Source: Myxococcales bacterium (GTDB taxonomy: Bacteria; Myxococcota; Myxococcia; Myxococcales; JAKAPL01). From it: a DNA stretch of 64,000 nt. How positions within the stretch are numbered: the stretch's first letter is position 1; each line of letters opens with the position of its first letter. The notes under the pieces were generated by a model. That model was not told the origin of the DNA. It did no database searches and worked only from the letters and a program-made list of their open reading frames with translations. Where the stretch lies: positions 35,364 through 99,363 of the forward strand of contig JAJXUD010000005.1 in assembly GCA_021783235.1 (NCBI GenBank), written 5' to 3'. Positions 51,868-59,243 of this stretch are shown here, piece after piece. Both the position numbers and the translations under genes were made by a program.

Positions 51868-53814
51868 CTAGACCGTGGCGTTCGCGGATTCGGACGGGGT
51901 CGCCCGCGGGGGCTCGTTCCACTCGGCCGCCGCGGCGGAGCACTGCCAGGCCGAAAGCTCCTCCTCGAGTTCCCGGACGATCTCGGCGACCGATTTCAGC
52001 TCCTCGATCGAGTGCTCCCGGATCCCGGTGACGCTCTGCCCCGTGTAGAAGAGGCCGCGATCGAGATCCCCATCGACGGCCGCTCGCAGGAGCGCGTCGC
52101 TGATGCAGAAGCTCTGGCGGTGGCCGCTCTCGCGAGAGGTGCAGATCGACTCGGCGAGGCAATCGTCGCAGGCCTTGCGGCGCCCGCGGAGCCCGCCCGG
52201 CCCGTAGTACGGCGCCTTGTCCTTGGGCGGAAAGGCCTCGCCCGCCGCGAGCCGCTCGGTGAAGGCGTTGCGGATGGCCCTCGCCCGCATCCCCTTGACC
52301 GTGCTCGTGATCGTCACCACGTCGGCGTCGGTCTTCCCCATGTGCATCCGCTTGAAGTTCGGGTGGACCTCGCAGTCGGACGAGACGATGAAGCGGGTGG
52401 CGAGCTGGACCCCGGCCGCCCCGGCGGCGAGCGCCCGGCCGATGGCGGCGCCGTCGGCCAGCCCACCCGCAGCGACCACCGGCAGCGAGCTGGCTTCGCG
52501 GACCTCCCGCAGCAGCCGATCGAGCGAGGCGTCGGGATCGCCCAGGTGCCCTCCGGCCTCTCGCCCCTCGGCCACGAGAAAGTCGGCACCCCAGCGCTCG
52601 TACATGGCTGCGAGCCGGCCGGAGCTGACGATCCCCACGAACGGCGTCTTCCGCTCGCGGCACCAGCGGATGATCTCGCGCGAGATGCCGGCGCCCTGCA
52701 CCACGAAGCTGACACCCACGTCCAGGGAGGCGCGCGCCACGGCCTCGAAGTCGCTCCGGTTGACCGCCGCCATGAGGTTCAGCCCGACGTAGCCGTTCGG
52801 CGCTTCGCGGCGCGACCGCTCGATCTGCTGGACCACCATCGAGACGGGCTTCGCCACGCCCGAGATCGTGCCGACGGGGACGAACTTCTCGCTCTTCACC
52901 CGCGCGATCTTTCCGGGAAGGCCGTCCGAGGCCATGATCCCCATCGCTCCCTGCACGAGCAGCCGCCTCCCGGAGGCGACGGCGGCCTCGATCGCGGCGC
53001 GATCCAGCTTCGGCAGCGGCCGCTCGCCGGCCTGGACGCACGGGCGATGGAGCGCGGTCGCGAGCCGGTCGGCCACCTCGGTGGCGAGTAGCCCGGCGTC
53101 CTCGCGCCCGGCCGTCTCGATCTCGGGCAAGATGGTGACCTCCACGTCGGCTCGGCGCGGCCACCAGCCTCGGGCCCGATCGAGGCAGGCTTCGGTGCCC
53201 CGCAGGGCGATCGGCAGCACCGGCGCGGCGTCCCCGATCGCAAGCCGGAAACCGCCCGACTCGAACGACCGGAGCTGTCCGTTGCGGCTGCGGGTCCCCT
53301 CCGGGAAGACGACGAGGGAGAGCCCGGCGCCGAGCGCCGCCTCCGCCCGCACGGCCGCCCGGCTACGGCTCGACCGGTCGGCGCGCCGCACCGGGATGTC
53401 GCGCGAGAGCCGCAGCATCCAGCCGACCCAGGGAATCTTGAAGAGCTCGGCCTTCGCGAGCCAGCGGGTCTTCCAATCGGCGTCCGCGAACAGGACCGAG
53501 AGGACGAGCACGTCCATCATCGATCGGTGATTTGCGACGACCACCCGACGGCGGCCGTCCCGCGGCAGTTCGCCCTCGACGCGCAGACGCCAGAGCGGGG
53601 ATCCCCGCATCATGAGCGCGGCGCCCCGGCGGATCCAGCGTCCGGCGGCGTGACGGCGATCGCCTTGACCGTCGCTGAGGCGCGCCACGGCGACGATCGG
53701 CAGGGTCGCACCGATGACGAGCGCGCACCAGAGGAGGGTCCAGACGGCGAGGATCGCGTCCCAGGCGGCCCGGAGACGCAGCGGACCCGTCGCTTTCCCG
53801 AGGGGGATATTCAT
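51868..53814 (-). CDS. Fusion protein: PlsC-type acyltransferase plus nitronate monooxygenase/FabK-like flavoenzyme with C-terminal Cys cluster
   Basis: N-terminal half NHRSMMD (HX4D) and FPEGTRSRNG; C-terminal half EAGGHLG, VAAGGLADGAAIGRALAAGAAGVQLATRF; CDDCLAESICTSRESGHRQSFC. One uninterrupted frame from ATG 53814. Confidence 0.85.
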   Translation of the reverse strand: MNIPLGKATGPLRLRAAWDAILAVWTLLWCALVIGATLPIVAVARLSDGQGDRRHAAGRWIRRGAALMMRGSPLWRLRVEGELPRDGRRRVVVANHRSMMDVLVLSVLFADADWKTRWLAKAELFKIPWVGWMLRLSRDIPVRRADRSSRSRAAVRAEAALGAGLSLVVFPEGTRSRNGQLRSFESGGFRLAIGDAAPVLPIALRGTEACLDRARGWWPRRADVEVTILPEIETAGREDAGLLATEVADRLATALHRPCVQAGERPLPKLDRAAIEAAVASGRRLLVQGAMGIMASDGLPGKIARVKSEKFVPVGTISGVAKPVSMVVQQIERSRREAPNGYVGLNLMAAVNRSDFEAVARASLDVGVSFVVQGAGISREIIRWCRERKTPFVGIVSSGRLAAMYERWGADFLVAEGREAGGHLGDPDASLDRLLREVREASSLPVVAAGGLADGAAIGRALAAGAAGVQLATRFIVSSDCEVHPNFKRMHMGKTDADVVTITSTVKGMRARAIRNAFTERLAAGEAFPPKDKAPYYGPGGLRGRRKACDDCLAESICTSRESGHRQSFCISDALLRAAVDGDLDRGLFYTGQSVTGIREHSIEELKSVAEIVRELEEELSAWQCSAAAAEWNEPPRATPSESANATV

Positions 53815-53845
53815 CGGGTGATTTTGCGACCTGGGGCCGAGCGAC

Positions 53846-53865
53846 GCCTTGATCTGGATCAAGGC
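53846..53865. promoter_or_regulatory. FNR/CRP-type box: perfect 20-bp palindrome
   Basis: GCCTTGATCTGGATCAAGGC containing TTGAT-N4-ATCAA, in the 106-bp divergent intergenic region. Confidence 0.85.
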
Positions 53866-53920
53866 GCTTGTCTTGGACATTAGCTTAGGGTATTGCGAGC
53901 TTCTGCCCGAAGGGTCGTCC

Positions 53921-55534
53921 ATGGCCACGAGCGTCGAGTCGATCAGCGCCGTCTCCTCTGCCGGCGCGGCGGCCGCTGGCCCCAGGGCGGCCGCGCTCTC
54001 CTGCGTCCAGTCGCCCGCCACCGGCTTCGCCGGCGCGGCCACGATGATCGGGCTCTACGTCTCCTACACGCTCTTCGAGGCCCGGCTCGCCGGCGGCGGA
54101 CCCGACTGGAACGGGCTCTGGGGCTTTCAACGCATCGCCCGGGACTACCTCGACATCCTCCTCTGCCTCCTCGTCACGTTCACCGTGATGATCGTCTTCG
54201 AGAAGGGGCTGCGCAGCGCCCGCTGGGCCGCCGGGCTGATCGTGGCGGTCGCCGCCTGGGTGGTCGCGAACTCCGGAGTCCAGCTCTGGCAGCTCTGGGG
54301 CGAATCGTTGACTTTGCCCGAGGCCGCGCTCCTCTCCGCGCTCGGCGCGCTCATCGTCCTGCTCGCGGTCGACCTCTCGAACCGAAAACGGCTCGGGGTC
54401 GCGAGCCCGCTCGCGGTGGCGCGGCCGGTCAGCTGGGGCCACGCGCTCCGCTCGGGCTTCTGGCGCTGGCTCTCGCTCTGGTCCGTGCTCTCGCTCGCGG
54501 TGACCGTCTACCTCGGCACGAAGCTCTATGCCGGGATTCCGGCCGGAACCGAGAGCTACTACCTGAACTGGCGGGTGACCTCGGTCGCGATCTGGTGGGG
54601 CTTCACCGTGATCGGGCTTCCCTACTGCGCGATCACCGTCAAGCGGCGAAGCTGCGTGAAGGAGGACCGATCCGATCCGGGGCTCGTGCTCGTGCTGCTC
54701 GCGCGGCGGCTCTGGAAGAAGGGGCCGAGGGAGGTCTACCGGCTCGTGAAGCGGCGGCGGATCCGGGTGGTCCTGCTCGACCTCGTGGTCAAGGGCTTCT
54801 GGGCGCCGCTCATGGTGACCTTCCTGTTCGGCGAGTGCGGGAGCATGCACTCTGGAATCGGCGGATCGTTCCCGGTTTTCGGCAGAGAGGGGCTCTTCGG
54901 AGGGCTCGGCCGGCTCTTCCGCGCCTTCTTCGGCTTCGCCGACGGCGCCTTCCTCGAGAGCAACTACCAGCTGCTCTACCACGGCCTCTTCGTCGTGGAT
55001 TGCAGCATCGGCCTGCTCGGCTACCTCACCTCCTCGCGCTGGCTCGGCACGAAGAGCAAATCGGTCGAGACCACGGCCCTCGGCTGGTGGGTGGCGCTCA
55101 CCTGCTACCCGCCCTTCAACGGGGTCACCGGCCAGATCGTCCCCTACGATCAGAGCCCGAACGGCGTCTACTGGCTCTTCTCCACGGTCGCCTTCCACCA
55201 CGCCATGATGCTCTGCACCCTTGCCCTCTTCTCCATCTACGTCTGGGCGACCATCGTCTTCGGCCTTCGCTTCTCGAACCTGACCCACCGCGGCCTCATC
55301 GCCACCGGCCCCTACCGCTACATCCGCCACCCGGCGTACGCGACGAAGAACCTGGCCTGGTGGACCGAGAGCCTCGTCCGGTTCGGCAGCCCCTGGCAGT
55401 TCGTCTACCTGGCGGGGTTGAACTTCGTCTACTTCATGCGGGCCATGACCGAGGAGCGGCACCTGCGGCAGAGCGAGGACTACCGCCGCTACGCCGAGCA
55501 GGTCCGCTGGCGCTTCCTGCCAGGCGTCTTCTGA
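53921..55534 (+). CDS. Polytopic membrane protein with C-terminal isoprenylcysteine methyltransferase/PEMT-like domain
   Basis: GPYRYIRHPAYATKN ... MTEERHLRQSEDYRRYAEQVRWRFLPGVF, typical ICMT-like C-terminus; about 10 TM segments. Confidence 0.78.
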   Translation: MATSVESISAVSSAGAAAAGPRAAALSCVQSPATGFAGAATMIGLYVSYTLFEARLAGGGPDWNGLWGFQRIARDYLDILLCLLVTFTVMIVFEKGLRSARWAAGLIVAVAAWVVANSGVQLWQLWGESLTLPEAALLSALGALIVLLAVDLSNRKRLGVASPLAVARPVSWGHALRSGFWRWLSLWSVLSLAVTVYLGTKLYAGIPAGTESYYLNWRVTSVAIWWGFTVIGLPYCAITVKRRSCVKEDRSDPGLVLVLLARRLWKKGPREVYRLVKRRRIRVVLLDLVVKGFWAPLMVTFLFGECGSMHSGIGGSFPVFGREGLFGGLGRLFRAFFGFADGAFLESNYQLLYHGLFVVDCSIGLLGYLTSSRWLGTKSKSVETTALGWWVALTCYPPFNGVTGQIVPYDQSPNGVYWLFSTVAFHHAMMLCTLALFSIYVWATIVFGLRFSNLTHRGLIATGPYRYIRHPAYATKNLAWWTESLVRFGSPWQFVYLAGLNFVYFMRAMTEERHLRQSEDYRRYAEQVRWRFLPGVF

Positions 55535-55553: not shown

Positions 55554-56210
55554 TCAGAGCTCGGCCTCGTCGGCCTCGTCGGCGAGCGCGGACAGCTTCG
55601 CGCGGTCCAGGACCCGGAGCTGGCGCCCCGTCGAGATCACCCGGGCGTCCCGAAGCCTGGTGAGCACCCGCGAGAGCGTCTCGGGGCGAAGGGAGAGCAG
55701 CCCGGCGACGAGCTGGTGCTGGAGCTCGAGCGGGGCCTCGCCGTCGCCCGCGTGCGTCAGCAGGAAGGCGGCCACGCGAGCGGTCGCGGAGGTGCGCGTC
55801 CTCGCCTCCTCGGAGCTCGCGCGCGCGGCCTCCTGCAGGCAGAGTTCGAGGAGCGCCCGCGCCGGCGAGGCCGCGGGCCCGAGCCAGGCGCTCAGCGACG
55901 CGACCGGGAGCGAGCAGACGTCGACCTCCGAGACGGCGGCCGCGGTGAAGCGATGCGCGGTCCCACGGACCACCTGCGGCTCGAGCAAGGAGCCCGCCGG
56001 GCGCAGCGCCTGCCGCGAGACGCGCCCCTCGGAGTCGACCTCGGTGAGCAGCACGAGGCCGCGCCTCAAGAAGTGGGCCGCCTCGGGGATGGCTCCCTGG
56101 TGGAAGAGAACGTGGCCGGGCGGATGCGTGACCCGCGTGAAGACGCAACGGTGATCGGGACACGCGACCCCGAGGGTGCACTGGCTGCACTGAATGGCCT
56201 GCCGAGTCAT
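55554..56210 (-). CDS. FNR-like Crp/Fnr-family regulator with [4Fe-4S]-type Cys ligands
   Basis: CSQCTLGVAC (CX2CX5C), later VDVCSLP; cNMP-binding-like core; HTH GLLSLRPETLSRVLTRLRD. Occupies the start of the false 1925-aa ORF. Confidence 0.87.
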   Translation of the reverse strand: MTRQAIQCSQCTLGVACPDHRCVFTRVTHPPGHVLFHQGAIPEAAHFLRRGLVLLTEVDSEGRVSRQALRPAGSLLEPQVVRGTAHRFTAAAVSEVDVCSLPVASLSAWLGPAASPARALLELCLQEAARASSEEARTRTSATARVAAFLLTHAGDGEAPLELQHQLVAGLLSLRPETLSRVLTRLRDARVISTGRQLRVLDRAKLSALADEADEAEL

Positions 56211-59200
56211 TCTCACCGGCATACCCGAGCCAAGGCTCGGGTTCAATCGGCCGTTCACGCCGCCGCCCTCCTGGCCGCGCTGGCGGCGTGCGGCCGGGCG
56301 CCTCCCGATCCGCTCGACGACGCGGCCGAGCGCATGGTGCCTCGGGCGCCAGCCCGCCCCTGGTCGTCCTGGCGGCCGGCCTCGCGGCCGCCCCCGGTCG
56401 ACCCGCGGGCGACGCGGCCCGCGTTCGAGCGCCATTGCGCGCCTTGCCACGGCGAGCGGGGCGATGGCCATGGCGATCTCGCCCGCTTCTTGCGCGCCCC
56501 TCCCGCCGATCTGACCACGGGCGATTTCGCGCTCCGGTCGACCTCGCCCGACTCGCCGCCCGCCGACGCCGATCTCTTCCGCACGATCAGCGCCGGCATC
56601 CCGCCCGCGGGAATGCCCTCGTTCGCCCAGCTGCCGGAGGCCGACCGCTGGGCGCTCGTGGACTACGTCAAGTCGCTCTCTCCCGCCTTCCTGGGGGAAC
56701 CCGCGGCCGCGCCCCTCGACCTCGGCGCGGAACCCCCCGTCCGCCCGGAGGAGGGAGCGTCGATCTACCGGGCCGCCGGCTGCGCGAGCTGCCACGGCGA
56801 CGGGGGACGGGGCGACGGCAGCGCCGTCTCGGATCTCGCAGAGAAGCCTCCAGACCTCACCCTCGGCCCGGGCGTGTTCGAGGGGGGAGCGACCCGCCGG
56901 GACGTCCTGCGCACCCTTCTCACCGGGATGCCCGGGACGCCGATGCCCTCGTACGCGGAGGCCGGCTTCTCGCGGCGACAGCTCTGGGCGCTCGCCGCCT
57001 ACGTCTCGGACCTCGCGAACCGGGGACGGGGCGACTGGGTGACCCGCTGGCGGCGATTCTTCGGCGGCCTCGGACTCGCCGGGGCGCCCAAGGGCGACGA
57101 CCCGCCGCGGTCGCGCCCCCCGCCCTTCCCAGCCGCGGACGGCTGCCTGCGCTGTCACGAAGGCATCGAGAGCATCAACGCCAAGATGCAGCCGGTCCTC
57201 GACACCATGGCGGGCGGTCGACGCGGCGCCTCTTGCGCCCTCTGCCACGACGGCGATCCGGACGGCCCGGACGAGCGCGCGGCGCACCGGAACCTCGTCG
57301 CGAACCCGGGCAGCCTCTGGGTCGTGGGACTCGGCGAGGGCTGCGCCCGCTGCCACGCGACGGCCGGGTCGCTCTCGACCTTCCAGGGGCACCCGCTCCC
57401 GACCGCGGTCGGCGGCCGGCTCATGAGCGTGGTCTCCCGGACCGACGACCCCACGGGCGCGACCGGAGGGGCGCACGCGTACCGCGTGCCCCGCGGACTG
57501 ATGGCCGCCGAGCTCGGAAAGGCGACGAACAGCCTGGCCGCCAACGGGCTCATCCCCAAGGGCGGACCCGCGGTCGCGGACGTCCCCGTGGACGATCCGG
57601 ACGGAGCCTCGCCCGCCGCCGGCTCGGAGGCCTACAAGTCCTGGGTGAGCCTCGCGCTCGACCGGGGCTTCTTGCGGCGGGTCGCCTGGGCCGACGTCAT
57701 CCCCGCGGCGCCCGCGGGGAGCCGCCAGTTCGAGGGGCTCGCGCGCGGCGCCGTCGGCGACATGTTCCGGAAGGACTGCGCCCGCTGCCACCTCTGGGAT
57801 CGCGGCTGGCCCGGGGCGGGCGGCCGCTACCGCTCCGAGGGCTGCTCGGCCTGCCACGTGCTCTACGGGGACGACGGCCGCAGCCGGAGCCACGATCCCA
57901 CCCTCGCCGGCGAGGGTCCTGGTCACCCGCTCCAGCACCGGATCACCGCCACGATCCCGTCGTCCCAGTGCGCCCACTGCCACTGGCGGGGCGGAGGCTA
58001 CTACTCGGACCTCCACTACAAGCGCGGCCTCGAGTGCCAGGACTGCCACGACTCGGTCGACGTCCACGGCGACGGGAACGTCTACCCGACGATGCACCTC
58101 CAGGTGTCGATCGCCTGCCAGGACTGCCACGGCACGGCGCGGGCCTACCCGTGGGAGCTGCCGGTCGGCTACGGCAGCCCCGTGCAGCTTCCGGGTCAGC
58201 GCGGCGTCGTCCGGGTCGACGGGATCGATCACCTGCTCAGCTCCCGCGGCAACGCGGAGGCGCGCTGGGTCCGGCGGGGCGAAACGGCGCTCCTCATCTC
58301 GCTCGACGGCCGCGAGCGACCGATCCCGCTGCTCAAGGATCTCCATCTGCGCAACGCCTGGTCCAGCGATGCGGCCCGGGTGGCGATGGACGCCATTCCC
58401 CGCCACGAGGAGAAGCTCGAGTGCCTCGCGTGCCACGTCCCACGGGCGGTCCAGTGCCAGGGCTGCCACGTCGAGAGCGACTTCGGCAAGAAGGCGATCG
58501 ACTGGGTCGCGAGCGCGAGCGCCCGCAGGAGCCCCTTCGAGCCCGCGGGCCGCGTCGAGACGCCCGGCGTCGAGACCTTCGCGTCGAGCCCCCACGCGCT
58601 CGTCGAACCGGCGCTCGGGGTCGACCTCAACGGCCGCGTCACCGGCCTCGTGCCCGGCTGCCTGCTGAGCCTCCGCGCCCGCGACGCGGACGGCGGCGTC
58701 GACCGGCTCGGCGCGACGTTCACCTCCGAGGGGCTGCCGAGCGCCACGCTCGCGCCCCTGATCCCGCACCAGGTGAACCGCGAGGCGCGAAGCTGCGAGA
58801 GCTGCCACACGAGCTCGATGGCGCTCGGCTACGGGGTGGGCCGCCACCGCGACGAGCCACCCGAGCCCGCGCCGGTTCCCGAGCGCCAGCCGATCCCCGG
58901 CGAGGAGGGACGCTTCATCGGCGCCCACGGCGTCACGATGTTCCCCGGCCCATCGAGCAGCGCGGGCGGAGGCATCGAGGCGTCGGATCGCTTCGACGTC
59001 AACCGGCTCGTGACCCGCGCCGGCCGGCAGATCAAGAGCCTCGCCGATCCCGGCGAGCGCCCGCTCTCGTCGCAGGAGCGCAACGTCACCGAACGCGAGG
59101 GCATCTGCCTCGCATGCCACCGGCTCTCGGGTACGCCCGCCTGGGCCTCCGCCGTCCGGCGCTTCGGCCGGACCGACACGCCCGAGGCCCACGATCGCGC

Positions 59201-59243
59201 CGTCGGCGCCCTCCTCGAGCAGCTCCTGCGCCCCGGGCGCTGA
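56151..59243 (+). CDS. 14-heme c-type cytochrome: two N-terminal mono-heme domains plus 12-heme region; start codon uncertain
   Basis: 14 CXXCH counted by eye: CAPCH, CASCH, CLRCH, CALCH, CARCH, CARCH, CSACH, CAHCH, CQDCH, CQDCH, CLACH, CQGCH, CESCH, CLACH. Lipoprotein-like AALLAALAACG. Confidence 0.87.
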   Translation: MIGTRDPEGALAALNGLPSHSHRHTRAKARVQSAVHAAALLAALAACGRAPPDPLDDAAERMVPRAPARPWSSWRPASRPPPVDPRATRPAFERHCAPCHGERGDGHGDLARFLRAPPADLTTGDFALRSTSPDSPPADADLFRTISAGIPPAGMPSFAQLPEADRWALVDYVKSLSPAFLGEPAAAPLDLGAEPPVRPEEGASIYRAAGCASCHGDGGRGDGSAVSDLAEKPPDLTLGPGVFEGGATRRDVLRTLLTGMPGTPMPSYAEAGFSRRQLWALAAYVSDLANRGRGDWVTRWRRFFGGLGLAGAPKGDDPPRSRPPPFPAADGCLRCHEGIESINAKMQPVLDTMAGGRRGASCALCHDGDPDGPDERAAHRNLVANPGSLWVVGLGEGCARCHATAGSLSTFQGHPLPTAVGGRLMSVVSRTDDPTGATGGAHAYRVPRGLMAAELGKATNSLAANGLIPKGGPAVADVPVDDPDGASPAAGSEAYKSWVSLALDRGFLRRVAWADVIPAAPAGSRQFEGLARGAVGDMFRKDCARCHLWDRGWPGAGGRYRSEGCSACHVLYGDDGRSRSHDPTLAGEGPGHPLQHRITATIPSSQCAHCHWRGGGYYSDLHYKRGLECQDCHDSVDVHGDGNVYPTMHLQVSIACQDCHGTARAYPWELPVGYGSPVQLPGQRGVVRVDGIDHLLSSRGNAEARWVRRGETALLISLDGRERPIPLLKDLHLRNAWSSDAARVAMDAIPRHEEKLECLACHVPRAVQCQGCHVESDFGKKAIDWVASASARRSPFEPAGRVETPGVETFASSPHALVEPALGVDLNGRVTGLVPGCLLSLRARDADGGVDRLGATFTSEGLPSATLAPLIPHQVNREARSCESCHTSSMALGYGVGRHRDEPPEPAPVPERQPIPGEEGRFIGAHGVTMFPGPSSSAGGGIEASDRFDVNRLVTRAGRQIKSLADPGERPLSSQERNVTEREGICLACHRLSGTPAWASAVRRFGRTDTPEAHDRAVGALLEQLLRPGR

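Follow-up and report, generated by a model that had tools for sequence, protein, structure and literature searches.

The window analysed here, a stretch of 64,000 nucleotides from a Myxococcales bacterium, carries in one of its divergent intergenic gaps an element that we read, with a probability of about 0.8, as the class II FNR-dependent promoter of a gene for an ICMT-like membrane protein within a small anaerobic regulon. The sequence of the element, the enrichment of its box, the promoter geometry and the recurrence of the same targets in a second genus are direct observations. A low-oxygen switch of this well-known type is very probably real, and the likely mechanism is that of known class II FNR-type promoters, with the site conserved in part and placed before the gene of an uncharacterised membrane protein. 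The window's genome (G000) was compared with two relatives, G001 and G002, the latter from another genus; the contigs come from metagenome-type assemblies. The regulon was scanned by pattern searches, the control being the box pattern read backwards. The features concerned are the following:

53845..53866, no strand: inverted repeat CGCCTTGATC-TG-GATCAAGGCG, enclosing the FNR-type box
53886..53891, plus strand: putative −10 hexamer TAGGGT, at a 23-bp gap from the box in class II geometry; predicted start at about 53898
53921..55534, plus strand: proposed target, a 537-aa multi-pass membrane protein with a C-terminal PEMT/ICMT-type domain (residues 441-517; GPYRYIRHPAY, TEER)
51868..53814, minus strand: divergent acyltransferase-NMO fusion, the only possible co-target, with CAAAAT at class II distance and its ATG at the predicted start site
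55554..56210, minus strand: Crp/Fnr protein, proposed regulator, with conserved C8, C11, C22 and C99 and recognition helix ETLSR
56220..59243, plus strand: 14-heme cytochrome, distantly ExtM-like, adjoining the regulator gene

The box and its promoter geometry

The FNR-type box TTGATCTGGATCAA (53849-53862) is an exact match to TTGATN4ATCAA and lies inside a 106-bp gap (53815-53920) bounded by the ATG of the acyltransferase-NMO gene at 53814 (minus strand) and that of the ICMT-like gene at 53921 (plus strand). The first-pass annotation had placed TTGAT-N4-ATCAA in this gap, and the coordinates agree with the sequence. It had also called the full 20-bp stretch GCCTTGATCTGGATCAAGGC (53846-53865) an exact palindrome, which is right for the arms (9 bp, or 10 bp when taken at 53845-53866) and wrong for the symmetry, the TG centre being asymmetric.

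This element is the sole match in the window at one mismatch or fewer, shuffled sequences averaging 0.09. At 72.5 % GC, chance should produce 0.001 exact boxes per window and 0.08 per genome (4.58 Mb). The genome contains five, compared with none for the reversed control, and 29 boxes with at most one mismatch versus four. Using TTGAYN4RTCAA, the counts for sites and control are 13 and 1 in G000, 14 and 0 in G002, and 5 and 1 in G001. In G001 (L035, L057, L185) the FNR-like gene has kept its cysteines and the ETLSR motif, yet box enrichment is scant, which would fit a decayed regulon or a shift in site preference.

The centre of TAGGGT lies 33 bp from the box centre (31-32 bp at sister sites), close to the 32 bp that put a box centre about 41.5 bp before the predicted start. 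The class II placement proposed earlier, with a start ahead of the ATG at 53921, is thus consistent with the geometry. Boxes with plausible targets are followed by TANNNT at 31-33 bp from their centre: TAGGGT (G000) and TAGGAT (G002) at the ICMT-like gene, TACCCT and TATGGT at a B12-radical-SAM gene, TAGGCT and TATCCT at a benzoyl-CoA operon, TAGGCT and TAGCGT at the gene of a small Cys-containing protein, and TAGCGT at an HlyIII gene. Gaps of 21-23 bp between box and TANNNT occur in 5 of 26 site-directions in G000 and 4 of 28 in G002, where the remaining gaps lead one to expect about 0.1 or fewer.

These sites define a composite motif, TTGAYNNNNRTCAA followed by N21-23 and TANNNT, with 32 matches across 60 related genomes against 2 for the reversed control. 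The five sites in G000 precede the ICMT-like gene, the benzoyl-CoA reductase operon, a B12-radical-SAM/radical-SAM pair, the small Cys-containing protein and HlyIII. All four sites in G002 lie before orthologues of the first four of these targets, with identities of 55–61 % for the ICMT-like protein, 76–85 % for the benzoyl-CoA operon, 79 % for the B12-radical SAM protein and 45 % for the small Cys protein. The sites on which the composite was built are those later counted in G000 and G002, so independent support comes from the gap histogram and the reversed control, as well as from the B12-radical-SAM promoter of G001 (a 3-mismatch box, then TAGCAT at a gap of 22) and the matches in other families. 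These last stand before cytochrome-like proteins (f6 family) and an Hcp-like protein (G004); a few of the other matches fall within genes and are probably due to chance.

Within the f6 family, the proteins encoded behind the composite on L156, L157, L159, L160, L161, L162 and L163 are similar to one another, secreted and about 175–245 aa long, and a cytochrome-type CxxCH is visible in at least one. The small Cys-containing protein (L062:12029-12475, 148 aa; L143:3648-4064, 138 aa) has conserved cysteines (GCxxCP), in both genera its gene stands behind a class II FNR-type promoter, and the L062 copy has no Pfam match; it is possibly a small Fe-S protein.

Conservation of the box at the ICMT-like gene itself is partial. 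It is present upstream of the orthologue in G002 and is missing at up to 3 mismatches in G001, so that one of two relatives retains it; G002 also keeps the site at three other shared targets.

According to the proposed mechanism, the FNR-type regulator encoded in the window would dimerise when oxygen is lacking and bind TTGATCTGGATCAA at about −42. There it would stand in for a good −35 element and touch RNA polymerase over TAGGGT, and transcription of the ICMT/PEMT-like gene (53921) would start near 53898. The benzoyl-CoA reductase operon, the radical-SAM pair, the small Cys-containing protein and the HlyIII-family protein would respond as further members of the same small anaerobic regulon. 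Binding, cluster, oxygen response, direction of regulation and enzyme activity are all predicted here from sequence.

Direction of control, proposed target and neighbours

A box placed between two divergent genes might also be bidirectional or act mainly leftward, controlling the acyltransferase-NMO fusion instead of or besides the ICMT-like gene, and CAAAAT indeed stands 32 bp from the box centre on that side. We consider this unlikely. CAAAAT lacks the TANNNT signature common to the conserved sites, and the start expected from class II geometry would coincide with the ATG itself. At E≤1e-30 neither G001 nor G002 yields a match to the fusion, yet G002 has the box at its ICMT-like gene. Because of the missing fusion counterpart and the deviating hexamer, the rightward reading, towards the ICMT-like gene, is preferred. 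In f6-family genomes the NMO part is a separate gene (57–63 % identity to the NMO of the fusion), in several cases with an acyltransferase match on the same contig no more than about 3 kb away.

The ICMT-like protein has about 7–8 predicted membrane segments. Its C-terminal domain exceeds the Pfam cut-offs for PF04191 (32.9 bits, cut-off 25) and PF04140 (25.3, cut-off 24), and the RHPxY and EE motifs of the ICMT/PEMT superfamily are invariant in its orthologues. Methyl transfer to a lipid or a prenyl-cysteine is a putative activity. Full-length relatives were found in its own family only; partial relatives in other families of the phylum are 34–43 % identical over 190–426 residues. A search of solved structures with the ICMT-like profile returned nothing meaningful, the structure predicted from a 4-sequence alignment (pLDDT 39) was too poor for a fold search, and our literature search turned up no report of a link between FNR and this family. 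In both relatives a radical-SAM gene (L057:7435-8505 and L058:1478-2548, 75 % identical) lies directly 3' of the ICMT-like gene; this gene was not found in G000.

The first-pass annotation had gone further and proposed an oxygen-responsive module of four neighbouring genes. Of this proposal, class II control of the ICMT-like gene by an FNR-type protein is well backed by evidence from the whole genome and from across genera, and the module is rejected, the neighbourhood being broken up in both relatives. The regulator gene adjoins a HemN-like gene and an oxidase-like gene in G001 and lies on another contig, with a 1-mismatch box of its own, in G002, and the G002 orthologue of the cytochrome (64 % identical) is on a separate contig. 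Since the regulon targets are conserved and the neighbourhood is not, the element is better described as one member of an FNR regulon than as part of a local module.

Control of the 14-heme cytochrome by an FNR-type box was likewise rejected for G000, where none occurs upstream of the gene at 2 mismatches or fewer. In G002 a TTGACCCCGGTCAA box stands about 130 bp ahead of the orthologous gene; it falls inside the predicted gene that lies upstream and lacks the −10 geometry. Between the regulator start and the lipobox-like LLAALAACG of the cytochrome (56210-56334) there is no in-frame ATG, GTG or TTG, and the nearest in-frame start codon appears to sit within the regulator gene on the opposite strand, which may reflect an error in the sequence or an unconventional start. 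Between regulator and cytochrome there is also a further inverted repeat, ACCCGAGCC-AA-GGCTCGGGT (56223-56242), which is not an FNR box.

The proposed regulator and its signal

The Crp/Fnr gene at 55554-56210 (minus strand) was correctly recognised in the first annotation as the neighbour of a cytochrome with 14 CXXCH motifs. Its product scores over the cut-offs for PF00027 and PF13545, in keeping with a cNMP-binding-like domain and a Crp-type HTH, and its recognition helix carries ETLSR at residues 177-181, of the E-x-x-S-R form associated with TTGAT half-sites, a motif that the homologues and E. coli FNR share as ETxSR. The alignment comprised five homologues from the genomes of four relatives plus E. 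coli FNR.

The CX2CX5C pattern previously held to match the E. coli FNR ligands is literally present (C8, C11, C17) and was rejected as a ligand set on conservation, C17 being absent from all five aligned homologues. The cysteines that are conserved, C8, C11, C22 and C99, follow the spacing CX2CX9-10C plus one later Cys. Three N-terminal residues and one central residue could hold a [4Fe-4S] cluster, and the regulator probably does so on these four. This suggests that the FNR family here may work with the CX2CX9-10C spacing. The score with the NCBIfam Fnr model is 21.9 bits, far under the cut-off of 228, and the nearest solved-structure match by sequence is DNR; the protein is therefore classified as an FNR-like relative outside the NCBIfam Fnr subfamily.

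One other full-length Crp-like protein was found in G000, with neither the cysteine cluster nor the ETLSR motif, along with one partial HTH match. Among the Crp-like proteins found in this genome, which is about 97 % complete so that a paralogue could be missing from the assembly, the window's regulator alone combines both traits. Since the other full-length protein lacks them, the window's regulator is the only good candidate reader of the boxes.

The match to DNR raises the question of the signal. DNR/NnrR regulators also read TTGATN4ATCAA, and a protein of this kind would sense nitric oxide, or some other signal, and drive an NO or denitrification response from the same box. We regard this as improbable, since four cysteines are conserved in the family, as expected of an Fe-S sensor, and the shared targets include benzoyl-CoA reductase, part of an anaerobic, oxygen-sensitive pathway. 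A transcription terminator or a chance palindrome devoid of regulatory role is more improbable still: a simple scan labels the repeat terminator-like and the window has no shortage of GC-rich inverted repeats of similar size (22 listed), but a site between two divergent starts has no transcript to end and the fold is unexceptional (z −0.81), on which grounds the terminator was rejected, while recurrence of the TTGAT/ATCAA half-sites and the −10 spacing at orthologous genes argues against chance.

Proposed regulon-mates and comparison with known systems

The regulon-mates point to anaerobic metabolism. The benzoyl-CoA operon encodes 6-hydroxycyclohex-1-ene-1-carbonyl-CoA dehydrogenase, ring hydratases and benzoyl-CoA reductase subunits, and is of the bcr type by profile match. 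Because the radical-SAM pair matches lipid-related models weakly (hopanoid, ladderane and tetraether lipid enzymes), a lipid role is a plausible lead and not a result. The more specific idea, FNR-controlled anaerobic membrane remodelling in uncultured Myxococcota with the ICMT/PEMT-like protein and the radical-SAM pair modifying membrane lipids once oxygen is gone, alongside benzoyl-CoA degradation, appears doubtful. The analysis outlines, for a Myxococcota family that is uncultured, a compact FNR-type regulon whose promoters follow a clear grammar. From it one would expect an orphan membrane-methyltransferase-like protein and a radical-SAM pair to serve anaerobic functions and to be expressed together with the enzymes of benzoyl-CoA reduction, and several uncharacterised genes thereby gain a physiological context.

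Among known regulators, DNR, the NO-sensing Crp/Fnr protein of Pseudomonas, uses the same DNA half-sites as the box; by comparison, the conserved Fe-S-type cysteines of the window's regulator suggest FNR-like sensing. The target shares its C-terminal domain and motifs with the ICMT/PEMT superfamily, unlike which it adds an N-terminal membrane region of 430 residues, and it scores far under the NCBIfam isopcys_mtase cut-off (29.9 versus 160).

The closest parallel for the benzoyl-CoA operon is the PN promoter of the Azoarcus bzd operon, which the FNR relative AcpR activates from −41.5 (PMC6678401), the position predicted for the operon here, which differs in being of the bcr type. E. coli FNR likewise activates mostly from −41.5, and its class II promoters (among them narGHJI, dmsABC and nirBDC) have the same TTGATN4ATCAA about 41.5 bp before the start, upstream of the −10 element (PMC3688515). 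In contrast to these, the promoter described here belongs to a GC-rich Myxococcota host, is built on a TANNNT −10, pairs with a regulator of different cysteine spacing and has an uncharacterised membrane protein as its proposed target.
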